DNA from: a virus
Length of the DNA: 20,268 bases
IMG/VR virus record: IMGVR_UViG_3300042555_001895
Coordinates: 1-20,268 of that record
Strand: one strand, 5' to 3'
Numbering within the stretch: position 1 is the stretch's first letter; each line of letters opens with the position of its first letter. A model generated the notes under the pieces. That model was not told where the DNA came from, did no database searches, and was given only the letters and a program-made list of their open reading frames with translations. Shown one piece after another: positions 83 through 6,363 of the stretch. Position numbers and translations under genes: made by a program.

Positions 83-1054
83 TCAATGCCCCCCGGACAC
101 CCGGCGTGATTTTGCGGACCCCCTCCCCCCCTCTGTCCGCGGCCCGGGCGCCTGCTCACGCTCGCCGGTCGTCGTCGTCGCCTCATGGGTCGTCCCGGCA
201 TCCTCGACGCGCTGGGCGGGCTCCTGAGTCGCTGGCTTGGCATCCTCGACCGCCTCGAAACTGGCTGAAGGTGTATCAGAAAGTGTAGCAGGCTGGGCCG
301 TTACAGAGTCGGAACCTGTCAAATAACCTGATTGCTCATCAGGTGTTGATTGATTCTCAGGGGATCCAGTGGGAAACTCTGCATGATGAGAGACACCAGG
401 GAGGAGAGCCATGCCGGCAGCCGGGGCGGCCACCTCGAGGGGCACGGCCTGCACCGCGGCGGGCTCGGCCTGCACCGCGGCACCCGGATCGGCGCTCTTT
501 TGGGCAACTTCTCCCCCCTGAAAACCGATAGCCGGGATGATCTCCGCCTCGATGACCTTTCCGGAGATCATCCGGATATAATCCTCGTGAGTCGGGCCGC
601 TTTCCGTGTGCTCGATCCTGGACGTTGCGCCACCGGCCAGCAGCTCCGCCTTCTCCACCGCGATCCCGAGAGCGATAGGGAGGGACTGAATCGGGATCTG
701 GTCCACCTCATCGAGGAGGCGATCAGCGGCCAGCCGTCCAAAGGTCCGCAACACGGAAACAGTTCTTTCTTTAAGTGTGGCTACAGCGTGAGATTCACGA
801 GCCATGACAGCCGCGACGGTGTGATGGGACACCCGATATGCCCGGCAGAGTTGCCGGACACCGAGACCTTGCCCGAGACCATCGACAAGCGCCCGGTATA
901 TAGTCGGACGGGATTCCATCAGCCGTTCCGCCGTGAACTCTCCACGACGCTCCATCTCCTGATTCCCTTCCTCTTCAGTGTTCACCAAAAAAAGAGAAGG
1001 GGCGGCGGCCTCGTCGGCGGCCACCTGATCCAGAAGTGAGGGACGCTTTGCCAT
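83..1054 (-). CDS. Terminase small subunit-like HTH protein with a long disordered tail
   Basis: A 323-residue protein. Residues about 64-87 form a helix-turn-helix (GVRQLCRAYRVSHHTVAAVM), followed by helices containing IALGIAVEKAELLAGGATSR, a layout common in phage TerS-like DNA-recognition proteins. In that family this subunit binds the packaging site and hands DNA to TerL. Residues after about 180 are rich in Ala, Pro, Thr, Glu and Gln, and look disordered. I chose the ATG at 1054, which follows the preceding TAA by one base and suggests coupled translation. A TTG at 1063 would add three residues and overlap the upstream gene. The next gene downstream is the candidate TerL. TerS proteins diverge greatly, so this remains a structural-style match; a general phage DNA-binding protein is the alternative. 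Confidence 0.6.
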   Translation of the reverse strand: MAKRPSLLDQVAADEAAAPSLFLVNTEEEGNQEMERRGEFTAERLMESRPTIYRALVDGLGQGLGVRQLCRAYRVSHHTVAAVMARESHAVATLKERTVSVLRTFGRLAADRLLDEVDQIPIQSLPIALGIAVEKAELLAGGATSRIEHTESGPTHEDYIRMISGKVIEAEIIPAIGFQGGEVAQKSADPGAAVQAEPAAVQAVPLEVAAPAAGMALLPGVSHHAEFPTGSPENQSTPDEQSGYLTGSDSVTAQPATLSDTPSASFEAVEDAKPATQEPAQRVEDAGTTHEATTTTGEREQAPGPRTEGGRGSAKSRRVSGGH

Positions 1055-1055
1055 G

Positions 1056-1253
1056 TTATCCAACTAGGCGGCGAGCGATGAACGCATCCAGGGCAGTCTC
1101 AGAGATCCGCCTATCCTTCCGGGATAGAAACAAGACCTTGCCGAACTCACCAGCCGAGACATAGCGGGCCAGCGTGTTCAGGTGGATCCCGAGGCGGTCG
1201 CACACCTCGCGGGAAGTCAGCCATCGGGCCGGGGTGGAGGTGCTGGCGCTCAT
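1056..1253 (-). CDS. Excisionase/MerR-type HTH protein, 65 aa
   Basis: This small protein reads RWLTSREVCDRLGIHLNTLA, then a wing with R-K-D-R-R-I and an alpha-helical end. That is the compact winged-HTH pattern of excisionase and MerR-like domains (HTH_17 type). Its ATG shares an ATGA with the stop of the upstream 73-residue gene, which fixes the start and implies translational coupling. The frame is open far upstream, to an ATG at 1553, but the extra 100 residues are low-complexity and overlap two better genes. It could direct excision, although it is not beside the integrase. The lambda packaging subunit gpNu1 has a similar winged HTH and this gene abuts TerS/TerL-like genes, so a packaging or regulatory role is equally possible. 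Confidence 0.72.
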   Translation of the reverse strand: MSASTSTPARWLTSREVCDRLGIHLNTLARYVSAGEFGKVLFLSRKDRRISETALDAFIARRLVG

Positions 1254-1471: not shown

Positions 1472-1602
1472 TTCCGGATCCTCCGGTTACGGTTGCCGTA
1501 AAAAAAAGAAGCGGCCGCGGAGGCGAGGGGGCCGGAGAGCGCCGCCAGGACAAGGAGCCCGGAGAGGCAAACGACGAGAGAGCAGAATGCAGGTGCGCTC
1601 AT
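1468..1602 (-). CDS. Small hydrophobic (membrane or secreted) peptide, 44 aa
   Basis: This short frame encodes MSAPAFCSLVVCLSGLLVLA, continues through a hydrophobic stretch to about residue 29, and ends in a basic tail (N-R-N-R-R-I-R-K). That is one membrane segment or an uncleaved signal peptide, with a positive C-terminus. An excellent AGGAGG lies eight bases before the ATG, the best ribosome binding site in the window. The ATG overlaps the stop of the RHH gene, and its own stop overlaps the ATG of the 73-residue gene. A holin, a superinfection-exclusion peptide or a small regulatory membrane protein are all possible; I cannot choose. The frame contains a T8 run near its 3' end where slippage would shift it into the frame of the downstream HTH gene. 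Confidence 0.6.
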   Translation of the reverse strand: MSAPAFCSLVVCLSGLLVLAALSGPLASAAASFFYGNRNRRIRK

Positions 1603-1760
1603 TTTGCTGCCTCCTGTTTCTCATTCTGGCGGACATGCTCCGCGATGATGCGGCGGACAACAGCGGCGGCGGAAATGAGCTCACGATCTGCCTCCCGCTT
1701 GATTTCATCAGCGATTTCAGCCGGGAGCTGGACGCTGAATATTGCTTTCTCCTTAGTCAT
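1599..1760 (-). CDS. Arc-sized ribbon-helix-helix regulator, 53 aa
   Basis: The product begins MTKEKAIFSVQLPAEIADEI and continues with a helix ending A-A-A-V-V-R-R-I-I-A-E-H-V. A short beta strand (AIFSVQL), a helix, a turn and a second helix are the RHH fold of the Arc/MetJ/CopG families, which bind DNA as dimers through the strand. It has 53 residues, the same length as P22 Arc. It is the first gene of the leftward operon. Its start lies two bases from a nested TCTA/TAGA dyad, so autoregulation is likely (inference). Its stop overlaps the next gene's start by ATGA. No Shine-Dalgarno precedes the ATG at 1760, so the leader may be very short. Confidence 0.72.
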   Translation of the reverse strand: MTKEKAIFSVQLPAEIADEIKREADRELISAAAVVRRIIAEHVRQNEKQEAAK

Positions 1761-1761
1761 A

Positions 1762-1789
1762 TCTAAGCGTTCTAACTAGAATAACTAGA
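1762..1789. promoter_or_regulatory. Nested dyad operator in the divergent RHH-RHH control region
   Basis: The sequence reads TCTA-N5-TCTA-AC-TAGA-N5-TAGA, with both pairs of half-sites sharing one symmetry centre at 1775.5. It lies in the AT-rich gap between two divergent RHH genes. RHH proteins bind paired half-sites, and P22 Arc recognises TAGA-type subsites, so this is a good candidate operator. On the minus strand TATTCT (1783-1778) could serve as a -10 element inside it, but I find no convincing -35 for either direction. Confidence 0.62.
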
Positions 1790-1839
1790 CTATGCAACAA
1801 AAAGTTTGAAAATCTTTTTGAGCGGGTCGAATGTGCAGC

Positions 1840-2115
1840 ATGAGCAAGTCCGAACACCCTCACGGAAAGGGGAAAACCAGCATATCGACGACGATCCCCA
1901 ACGAGGTCTTGGAGGCGCTGGATTACCTCGCCACTAAGTCCGGAGTCACCCGGTCCACCTATGCCAGGGAGGCGATCATTGCGAGCGTCAGGGCAGGGCG
2001 GACTGTATCAGCCCAGGAACTCATGCAACGCCGCTACAACACCCCCGAAGTCATCAGCCTCCGAGCCGCCGAAAACCCCAACAAGGCCACGCCTCACCGA
2101 TCCTCTGGCGCGTAG
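1840..2115 (+). CDS. Ribbon-helix-helix DNA-binding protein (first paralogue), 91 aa
   Basis: A basic N-terminus (HGKGK) leads into TSISTTIPNEVLEALDYLAT and a second helix S-T-Y-A-R-E-A-I-I-A-S-V. This strand-helix-helix pattern is that of CopG/Arc-type RHH proteins, which act as dimeric transcription regulators. The C-terminal 35 residues are polar and probably flexible. I chose the ATG at 1840 rather than 1831 because it aligns with the start of the paralogue at 2428, and both then have 91 residues. Neither start has a clear ribosome binding site. It is the first gene of the rightward early operon and faces the 53-residue RHH gene across the dyad. The pair is likely to form a regulatory switch (inference). 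Confidence 0.72.
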   Translation: MSKSEHPHGKGKTSISTTIPNEVLEALDYLATKSGVTRSTYAREAIIASVRAGRTVSAQELMQRRYNTPEVISLRAAENPNKATPHRSSGA

Positions 2116-2149: not shown

Positions 2150-2431
2150 ATGAGCCGTTCCCTGTATCTGATAGCGCCAGCACTGGCAATAACACTCGCC
2201 GCTTGTAAGCCTCCACCTCGTTATACACTCCATGAAGGCACTGACCCGCTAACCGGACGGCCTGCGACAATGAAATTGAACGTGGAAACCGGAGAGGTTT
2301 ATCAGTTGTCGACTATAAACACGCCGCATGGGCAATGGGGCGCCTGGACTTGCTACCTGAGCGGCCATGATGCTTATAAAGCGGCCTCGCAGCTTTCCGG
2401 TCGCACTCAAACCAACAACCCACGCCCATGA
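2150..2431 (+). CDS. Small lipoprotein, 93 aa
   Basis: The N-terminus is a lipoprotein signal: a short basic start, a hydrophobic core (LYLIAPALAIT) and a lipobox L16-A17-A18-C19. The mature protein begins CKPPPRYTLHEGTDPLTGRP and has a mixed beta-type sequence of about 75 residues. It should be anchored in a membrane on the periplasmic side. I do not recognise a family. It sits between two paralogous RHH genes and its stop overlaps the second by ATGA, so it is expressed early, possibly in the lysogen. Phage lipoproteins in such positions often alter the host surface or block superinfection; here that is only a suggestion. The frame is open upstream, but the residues before this ATG look non-coding. 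Confidence 0.65.
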   Translation: MSRSLYLIAPALAITLAACKPPPRYTLHEGTDPLTGRPATMKLNVETGEVYQLSTINTPHGQWGAWTCYLSGHDAYKAASQLSGRTQTNNPRP

Positions 2432-2703
2432 CCAAGCACAAAGAAACCACCGGACACGGACCCGGCCGCGGGAAGCACTCCATCAGCTCCACCGTCTCCC
2501 TTGAGGTCATTGAGGCGCTCGACTACCTCGCCACCCGCTCAGGACTCACCCGCGGGGGCTACGTCTCCGAGGCTGTCACCGCCGCCGTGATTGCCGGGAC
2601 CACCTTCCCCAGGGCAACGGCAACCGTCCAGTTACCCGCTGAGACCGCCCGAAAAGTCCGCCAGTCAGTGAGCAGGGAGAAGCGCGGCGGCCCGCGCAGC
2701 TAG
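2428..2703 (+). CDS. Ribbon-helix-helix DNA-binding protein (second paralogue), 91 aa
   Basis: The core H-S-I-S-S-T-V-S-L-E-V-I-E-A-L-D-Y-L-A-T aligns without gaps to the RHH gene at 1840 and shares EALDYLAT, S-G-[VL]-T-R and a following helix. The N-terminus is likewise basic (GPGRGK). Residues after about 55 differ from the paralogue and include a basic end (SREKRGGPRS), possibly a second DNA-contacting region. The start overlaps the lipoprotein stop by ATGA. A 131-base gap with a palindrome follows, so this gene ends the first early unit. The protein may repress the downstream promoter or titrate the first paralogue. The direction of control cannot be read from sequence. Confidence 0.7.
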   Translation: MTKHKETTGHGPGRGKHSISSTVSLEVIEALDYLATRSGLTRGGYVSEAVTAAVIAGTTFPRATATVQLPAETARKVRQSVSREKRGGPRS

Positions 2704-2750: not shown

Positions 2751-2779
2751 TTGACTTCCCACGGGAACCCGTGAGAAGG
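2751..2779 (+). promoter_or_regulatory. Candidate promoter with palindromic operator ahead of the RadC-like operon
   Basis: TTGACT at 2751-2756 is a good -35 element. Directly behind it is a perfect palindrome CACGGG-AA-CCCGTG at 2760-2773, where the spacer would lie. The -10 region is weak: AGAAGG falls at 17-base spacing and TAGAAG further on. A repressor bound to the palindrome would block polymerase, so this looks like a controlled promoter for the genes from 2835. The binding protein is unknown; the RHH proteins just upstream are candidates. Confidence 0.5.
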
Positions 2780-5124: not shown

Positions 5125-6363
5125 ATGAGCACCGCAACGAGAACTGATATTGTCGTCAATCACAGGGGGAAAAGCTATACTCTATGGAGGAGGGGAGACA
5201 ACCTCTATCTCCGACTTCGGCGTGATAACCGGGCAATCTGGAAGACGCTCAAGACCAGCCTAAAGGACCAAGCCGTCAAGCAGGCCAAGACAGAGCTGGA
5301 CAAGCTAGAGCGCAACGACTGGAACCCCTCGCCCCAGAAAGCCGAGGCGACGACTACCGGCCTCGCCAATATCGGAGATATTCTGACGCGGCTGGAGAAG
5401 AGCGCCGAGGATACCGGGATAGCCCGCCGGTCAGTGCTCGACTACATCCACGGGCTTGAGAGGCTGGTCTCGGTCGTGACCAAGCGAGCGGACCCCCGCA
5501 AGGTCTCAAGCTCCATCCTCACCGAGGAGACGGCGCTCTGCTTCATCCGCCGATGCCGCACCACCGAGATCGTTGGGCCGGACGGGAGCAAGAAATACCG
5601 CTCCGATGCCTCGATCCGCAGCCACCTCATCCAGGCGCGGGCCGTCTTCACCAAGGATAAGATGGGCCTCTACAAGGGGCTCCGCCTTCCCGATCTGACG
5701 GGATTCAAGACCGCCACCCCGTCGCCCAAGTGGGCACCCGCGACCATGGGCTTCACCAGGTTCGAGAAGGAGAAGGCCATGAGCATGCTGGCCGGTGCCG
5801 AGGAGCTACGCCTTGCCAAGTCTCCCGTCTGGCCATGCTGGGCGCTCATGCACAATCTCGGCGTCCGGAACAAGATGGTGTATCAGGCGAAGTGGAGCGA
5901 CTTCCACGAGCAGGCTGGGGCGATCACCTTCACCACCCGCGGCGACTACCGGGAGGCCGTCACCATCCGCCTCACCGTCAGGCCCGAGCTATGGCAGCAG
6001 CTCTTGGAGTTTAAGAGCGCCACCCCGGTCGAGCAGGATGAGAATGCCGCCTACGTCATCCCGGCGAGGAACAAGACCGAGCGCAGGAAAATCTGCTACA
6101 ACCTGGTCAACCGCTTCTTTGAGAAGCACATCCCCACTCCGAAGGGGCACAAGAAAGCCTATCAGCTCCGGGGACAGGCCGCCTCGATCGCCTTCAAGTA
6201 TCACGGAATCAATGCCGCAATGCGGATGCTGGGACACAAGCACGCCAGCACCACTCTGAATAATTACGCGGAACACTTACGCGAAAGCGAAGGCATCGAC
6301 CCCGCCGACCATGCTAAGTTCTACGGTATCACCCATACAGAAACCACACCACCCACCCCATGA
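5125..6363 (+). CDS. int: Tyrosine recombinase (phage integrase)
   Basis: A 412-residue tyrosine recombinase that would insert the phage genome at a host tRNA-Thr gene. Residues about 78-185 form the core-binding helical domain and about 210-385 the catalytic domain. Visible catalytic motifs are R248 (HNLGVRNKMV), R349 (AYQLRGQAAS), H371 (MRMLGHKHAS) and the nucleophile Y381 (TTLNNYAEH). The usual His two residues before the leucine of box II is Tyr (Y346), and the residue after R349 is Gly, so the active site departs from the R-K-H-R-H-Y consensus. The N-terminal region (about 1-60) is a basic beta-rich arm-binding type domain. The start has only a weak ribosome site. The stop overlaps the next gene by ATGA. 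Confidence 0.93.
   Translation: MSTATRTDIVVNHRGKSYTLWRRGDNLYLRLRRDNRAIWKTLKTSLKDQAVKQAKTELDKLERNDWNPSPQKAEATTTGLANIGDILTRLEKSAEDTGIARRSVLDYIHGLERLVSVVTKRADPRKVSSSILTEETALCFIRRCRTTEIVGPDGSKKYRSDASIRSHLIQARAVFTKDKMGLYKGLRLPDLTGFKTATPSPKWAPATMGFTRFEKEKAMSMLAGAEELRLAKSPVWPCWALMHNLGVRNKMVYQAKWSDFHEQAGAITFTTRGDYREAVTIRLTVRPELWQQLLEFKSATPVEQDENAAYVIPARNKTERRKICYNLVNRFFEKHIPTPKGHKKAYQLRGQAASIAFKYHGINAAMRMLGHKHASTTLNNYAEHLRESEGIDPADHAKFYGITHTETTPPTP

Follow-up and report, generated by a model that had tools for sequence, protein, structure and literature searches.

Two divergent RHH regulators and their candidate operator form an exchangeable cassette, a probable primary immunity switch in a group of presumably temperate phages

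The DNA studied here is a 20,268-base IMG/VR virus record, referred to as the window throughout. Near its left end two small genes are transcribed away from each other and are separated by an A+T-rich gap of 79 bp (1761–1839), which was delimited by direct reading and by alignment with relatives. The leftward gene encodes RHH-A (1599–1760, minus strand), a protein of 53 amino acids. Its match to Pfam RHH_1 (E 5.6e-4, 20.2 bits) just misses the cut-off of 20.5 bits. The AlphaFold model of RHH-A (pLDDT 84) contains helices at residues 14–27 and 31–52 and is matched by RHH proteins in the PDB, mostly antitoxins and plasmid regulators. Arc is the top match in Foldseek without reaching significance (E 0.096), and other RHH structures match equally well or better. 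The rightward gene encodes RHH-B (1840–2115, plus strand), in which an RHH domain is followed by a C-terminal tail; it matches RHH_3 above the cut-off (E 3.2e-5). A mechanical call starts this open reading frame at ATG 1831 (94 aa). Since this codon is missing in relatives, we assigned the start to ATG 1840, giving a protein of 91 amino acids. The AlphaFold model of RHH-B shows two helices with a pLDDT of 62, too poor for fold searching, from which it was left out. RHH-A and RHH-B are thus members of the RHH superfamily, and the divergent genes for a 53- and a 91-residue RHH protein proposed in the original prediction were recovered by coordinates, by the RHH_1 and RHH_3 matches and, for RHH-A, by the AlphaFold model. 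A third RHH-like gene had been missed in that prediction: RHH-C (2428–2703, plus strand) is a 91-aa paralogue of RHH-B with 59% identity over 51 aa.

The gap contains a candidate operator, the nested dyad TCTA-N5-TCTA-AC-TAGA-N5-TAGA (1762–1789), composed of TCTA at 1762–1765 and 1771–1774 and TAGA at 1777–1780 and 1786–1789. As predicted the dyad has a single symmetry centre; it is perfect and unique in the window. Even when up to 3 mismatches are allowed the pattern has a single match in the 20-kb window (expected 0.01). When any 4-mer and any spacing were allowed, perfect nested dyads arose in 5 of 20,000 sequences obtained by dinucleotide shuffling of the gap. The real gap has one, which is also the only one in the whole window. 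The alignment of the gap in related phages, proposed earlier as a check, showed that 16 of 16 dyad letters are kept in L003 and 15 of 16 in L005, while the spacers drift. Across the window and these two relatives, 15 of 16 half-site letters are invariant versus 5 of 12 spacer letters (Fisher p 0.004). The TAGACTATGCAAnAnAAAGTTTGAA block adjoining the dyad is likewise conserved in these relatives. We also considered an RNA element in the gap. Folding of 1750–1845 was no better than that of shuffles (z -0.04) and an Rfam scan gave no match, and this reading was rejected.

Relatives were collected with the 318-aa protein encoded to the left of the RHH pair as search query, yielding ten contigs. 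Further scans contributed a fragment of the right-hand side that lacks the cassette, and a distant phage (L056) in which the counterpart of the 318-aa protein is 32% identical. The cassette comparison covers 11 related contigs. Among these, the gene pair of the window (type 1) is restricted to the window, the near-identical L003 and L004, and L005 as a second distinct relative. Six contigs (L018, L019, L022, L023, L024 and L025) carry an RHH pair of their own at the same place (type 2), with a leftward protein of about 62 aa and a rightward protein of 83–104 aa. In type 3 (L026) these lengths are 57 aa and 97 aa. For the rightward type-3 protein Pfam gives no RHH match, and it was assigned to RHH by profile comparison with RHH-B. 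The record of L003 (G001, also comprising L014 and L015; 44,118 bp) has ends that overlap by 2125 bp at 99.95% identity, indicating a complete genome of about 42 kb; it is classed as linear by IMG/VR, yet its ends overlap. The record of L005 (L016/L017) contains dispersed repeats of about 65–80 bp with CCTTCCCACCTTCCCACC in at least 7 copies, e.g. at L016 433–512; no copy was found in the window and its close relatives.

We scanned 84,980 genomes for related proviruses. RHH-B as query found nothing in the genome contigs, and the only match of the 318-aa protein was a 4509-bp contig (L028, LJOT01000296.1) of an Anabaena MAG. Since it matches the type-3 IMG/VR contig L026 at 100% identity, it gives no host; its filing under Anabaena is most likely a binning artefact. 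Apart from it, no prophage copy of these uncultured phages was found in the 84,980 genomes. Annotated phage records held no relative of the 318-aa protein, of RHH-B or of part of the long virion gene.

When comparing the contigs we found that the gene order is conserved on both sides of the RHH pair, the left and right neighbours being largely the same genes in all of them. The block RHH-A/gap/RHH-B (1599–2115) is exchangeable by DNA comparison and exists in three types, each characterised by a distinct RHH pair and a distinct palindromic word. Between the window and L018 the DNA identity is 86.3% over positions 1–1604 and breaks off at the stop codon of RHH-A. Positions 1605–2427 cannot be aligned except for a 50-base cross-match resembling RHH-C, and from 2428 on the identity is 88%. 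In the comparison of the window with the far more distant L005, an identity of 69% runs unbroken from 50 to 2002, through the cassette. Alignments of L003 with L022, L024 and L026 show the same left break, and homology restarts within the tail region of RHH-B. What moves together with the operator and RHH-A is hence its RHH domain, and the tail can stay with the backbone. This tail is common to the RHH-B proteins of the other cassette types and occurs in two forms that cut across the types, one ending in RSAGA or similar, the other containing PRIGFHAKK. At its position in types 2 and 3, RHH-A, which is conserved in L003 and L005, is replaced by other RHH proteins. Our argument for exchange relies on the DNA identity breaks and on the RHH-C flank, where a single clade of the three type-1 phages is rejected (p-AU 4e-59). 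The 318-aa gene rejects this clade weakly (p 0.016), a test made weak by the long branch of L005. Two regulators that are swapped together with their site between otherwise similar phages are a hallmark of heteroimmunity, and the observed pattern of identity breaks, as read from the DNA, is that of heteroimmune exchange. The joint exchange of operator and regulators between related phages, one of the features of an immunity region, can be read from these alignments together with the anatomy of the cassette.

The putative operators vary with the cassette type: the TCTA dyad is confined to type 1, TGTGGCACA is the word of type 2 and CTCATGAG that of type 3. All six type-2 cassettes contain 2–3 copies of TGTG[GC]CACA, which is absent elsewhere in the 9–17 kb of these loci. 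The gap holds two of the sites, about 54 bp apart; another lies some 170 bp away (169–171), close to where the leftward RHH gene ends. In the distant phage L056 three such sites occur with spacings of 55 and 171, compared to 54 and 169–171 in the others. Type 3 has two copies of CTCATGAG at a distance of 170 bp and none elsewhere in the locus. The 3’ end of the type-1 RHH-A gene was inspected for a site separated from the dyad by about 170 bp, the distance observed in the other two types; none was found. In total each cassette has 2–4 sites that are confined to it. Because the words were picked by inspection, chance values for single loci are only indicative; their recurrence across seven type-2 phages is stronger evidence than these values.

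We then assessed the position of these words relative to predicted promoters. The putative leftward promoter of the window (1769–1797, minus strand) consists of a -35 element TTGCAT (1797–1792), a 17-nt spacer and a -10 element TAGAAC (1774–1769) located 8 nt from the ATG of RHH-A. It is weak, with 7 of 12 consensus positions, and is arranged like its counterparts in types 2 and 3. Type-1 phages show TAGAAC or TATAAC as -10 element; the pair in L005 is TTGCAT/TATAAC. The dyad spans the region from just past the -35 element to the start codon. In type 2, TTGAC[AT] is followed by a 16-nt spacer holding TGTG[GC]CACA, by TACAA[AC] and by 6–8 nt to the ATG (TTGACA-TGTGGCACA...-TACAAA). The corresponding arrangement in type 3 is TTGACG, ACTCATGAGATACTCAT, TTTACT and 9 nt to the ATG (TTGACG-ACTCATGAG...-TTTACT). 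In both types the operator word is thus located between the -35 and -10 elements of the putative RHH-A promoter, directly after the -35. With the predicted -10 only 6–9 nt from the start codon, the mRNA would be nearly leaderless. A putative rightward promoter in type 1 (TAGTCA, 17 nt, TAGAAT; 9 of 12 positions; 1754–1782, plus strand) overlaps the dyad. It is uncertain; 0.4 promoter-like sites are expected in 2-kb shuffles, and neither type 2 nor type 3 showed a clear rightward promoter. Divergent regulators with operators over the early promoters, a further feature of immunity regions, are accordingly present in types 2 and 3 and less pronounced in type 1, as far as predicted promoters can tell.

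The two RHH genes head arms of different content. In G001 the leftward strand encodes an HTH_17 protein, the 318-aa protein, a DUF1376 protein, DnaB, terminase, capsid and portal, with the virion genes continuing on this strand at the opposite contig end. The main rightward block contains RHH-B, a lipoprotein, RHH-C, a RadC-like protein, small genes and the integrase. In the window, RHH-A is followed by a gene for a 44-aa membrane-like protein, which is not ant. The HTH_17 protein (1056–1253, minus strand; E 5e-11, phrog_66) is of the excisionase type and, like the 318–326-aa protein (83–1063, minus strand), is conserved across the cassette types. Directly downstream of RHH-B a small lipoprotein with the lipobox LAAC is encoded (2150–2431, plus strand), which varies between the phages. 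Its position suggests expression from the prophage, perhaps in superinfection exclusion. RHH-C is conserved across all cassette types and could be a further regulator. It is followed by a second control region (2751–2773, plus strand) with TTGACT and the palindrome CACGGGAACCCGTG. As it is kept in outline in all types, this region may be a site at which the conserved RHH-C acts. A tyrosine integrase (5125–6363, plus strand; phrog_1 E 7e-10, Pfam E 3e-4) is encoded towards the end of the rightward arm, and from it alone we infer a temperate life. Two integrase forms (70–92% or about 45% identical to that of the window) do not track the cassette types, so that attachment specificity may be exchanged separately.

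Searches for other repressors covered 11 records including the complete G001. None contained HTH_3, HTH_19 or S24 domains as expected for CI-type repressors, and control genomes were positive. The earlier statement that a CI-like repressor is lacking in the window could therefore be extended to 11 records, one of them complete.

The exchange of the block between related phages suggests that it is the main switch between dormancy and multiplication, built from RHH proteins instead of proteins of the CI/Cro type. We consider it likely that the RHH cassette with its two divergent regulators serves as the primary immunity switch of this temperate phage group. In the original prediction the gap had been proposed as a possible main lysis-lysogeny control; cassette exchange, co-varying operators, the lytic and integrase arms and the failure to detect a CI-type repressor in the 11 records all speak strongly for this role. 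We infer binding, the direction of repression and lysogeny as follows. RHH-B, heading the integrase arm, would be the lysogeny repressor which, bound to the dyad, prevents transcription from the leftward promoter. This promoter would drive RHH-A, the excisionase-like protein, replication (the DUF1376 primosomal protein and DnaB) and the late genes. RHH-A, as first gene of the lytic arm in a position like that of Cro or Arc, would bind the same operator, shut off RHH-B and temper its own promoter. As both proteins travel with the operator, heteroimmunity would be expected between phages that carry different blocks. More tentatively, it is quite possible that RHH-only divergent pairs are the primary immunity of the lineage with at least three specificities. 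In a change of specificity RHH-B would then keep its tail and exchange its RHH domain along with RHH-A and the operator; type 1 would have recruited this domain from RHH-C, the closest relative of the RHH domain of its RHH-B.

Several other explanations were weighed. The cassette might merely autoregulate early transcription while any lysogeny depends on some regulator not recognised as such, e.g. RHH-C, the HTH_17 protein or the 318-aa protein. For RHH-C, a conserved palindrome downstream and a position in the integrase arm are in line with this, and HTH_17 proteins can be both excisionase and regulator (phrog_66). Immunity determinants should however change along with their operators. This applies to RHH-A and RHH-B only, whereas these three proteins are conserved across the types; we regard this explanation as unlikely. 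That the symmetry of the dyad arose by chance, within a promoter or an RNA element, is very improbable: the dyad does overlap two putative promoters in an A+T-rich gap, but the shuffles, the conservation of half-sites over spacers, the folding and Rfam results and the fact that types 2 and 3 have other palindromes in this position all argue for a protein-binding site.

The RHH proteins could also be antitoxins or plasmid partition or copy-number proteins with the dyad as autoregulatory site, given that the structural matches of RHH-A are mostly of these classes. The neighbouring genes were read and scanned, and none is toxin-like, small genes of unassigned function being among them. No ParM or ParA partner was recognisable beside either RHH gene, PADLOC defence-system models matched neither protein, and a lytic and an integrase arm diverge from the gap. 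This leaves the antitoxin or plasmid reading with very little credence. Least probable is a true homologue of P22 immI, in which Arc/Mnt-type proteins govern an antirepressor. It would be in line with the divergent small RHH genes, the TAGA-type subsites, some PHROG matches to ‘Arc-like repressor’ (E ~0.002) and the Foldseek ranking of Arc. Nevertheless, the ANT domain (PF03374) gave no match in the 11 records at E up to 10 while positive controls matched, and the 44-aa membrane-like protein occupies the place of ant. There is also no primary CI/C2 repressor to antagonise. Pfam Arc (PF03869) matched neither RHH-A nor RHH-B, a PDB sequence search returned no Arc chain among its matches, and the closest sequence models are generic RHH models and not Arc/Mnt.

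P22 Arc has 53 residues and its operator contains TAGA-type words. The same length of RHH-A is coincidental, as the protein at its position in relatives has 54, 57 or 62 aa. TAGA-type subsites are indeed present in the dyad of the window, but they are not typical of the group, since the words of types 2 and 3 are different. The immI region of P22 comprises mnt, arc, sar and ant (PMC2629481). For a counterpart of the sar antisense RNA the analysis covered an Rfam scan, which gave no match. It governs the antirepressor beside the main repressor C2 (PMC2629481, PMC6550527) and is thus not the main control in P22. The system described here shares with it two small RHH repressors, TAGA-type words and divergent transcription from a common control region. 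It differs in that neither ant nor C2/CI is detectable and that the arms carry replication and virion genes and an integrase. It is therefore somewhat like immI and not a member, and the label given to it in the original prediction had to be dropped for the lack of Ant and of a main C2/CI alongside and for its generic RHH models.

A likeness to the lambdoid cI/cro immunity region can be seen in the divergent repressor pair, the shared operators, the block exchange and the opposition of a lytic arm and an integration side. Here, however, the folds are RHH instead of helix-turn-helix, no LexA-type cleavable repressor is present and the early promoter is putatively near-leaderless. A precedent for an RHH keeper of lysogeny is F55 of SSV1, a 55-aa RHH protein described as maintaining the lysogeny or carrier state and as binding ATAGATAGAGT with TAGA repeats (PMC9608457). 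SSV1 is an archaeal fusellovirus with a single regulator and several sites; in the parts of that report cited here F55 is called unique to SSV1 and no divergent RHH partner is mentioned (PMC9608457). In cluster A mycobacteriophages, too, repressor and stoperator motif have diverged in parallel and determine homo- or heteroimmunity (PMC6550527), with a single repressor and many genome-wide sites in contrast to the few sites within the cassette. RelB similarly places RHH dimers on four short repeats in one compact operator, relO (PMC2812701), but is an antitoxin with RelE as co-repressor, and no recognisable toxin exists here.

Searches of the open-access literature yielded no description of a bacterial phage whose primary immunity region consists of RHH regulators only. 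Primary immunity in well-studied bacterial phages usually depends on helix-turn-helix repressors, with RHH pairs as side circuits such as P22 immI. If the proposed role holds true, swappable RHH-only immunity would widen the range of lysogeny switches and explain temperate phages without a findable CI. It would also provide minimal repressor/operator sets (proteins of 53–62 and 83–112 aa) with predicted orthogonal specificities.

A minor observation concerns the leftward arm. The run TAAAAAAAAGAA (eight A) is found at 1351–1358 and 1500–1507, 149 bp apart, in adjacent leftward genes (73 and 44 aa) that both encode SFFY. It recurs at matching places in nearly all relatives and may represent a slippage site or else a shared motif.
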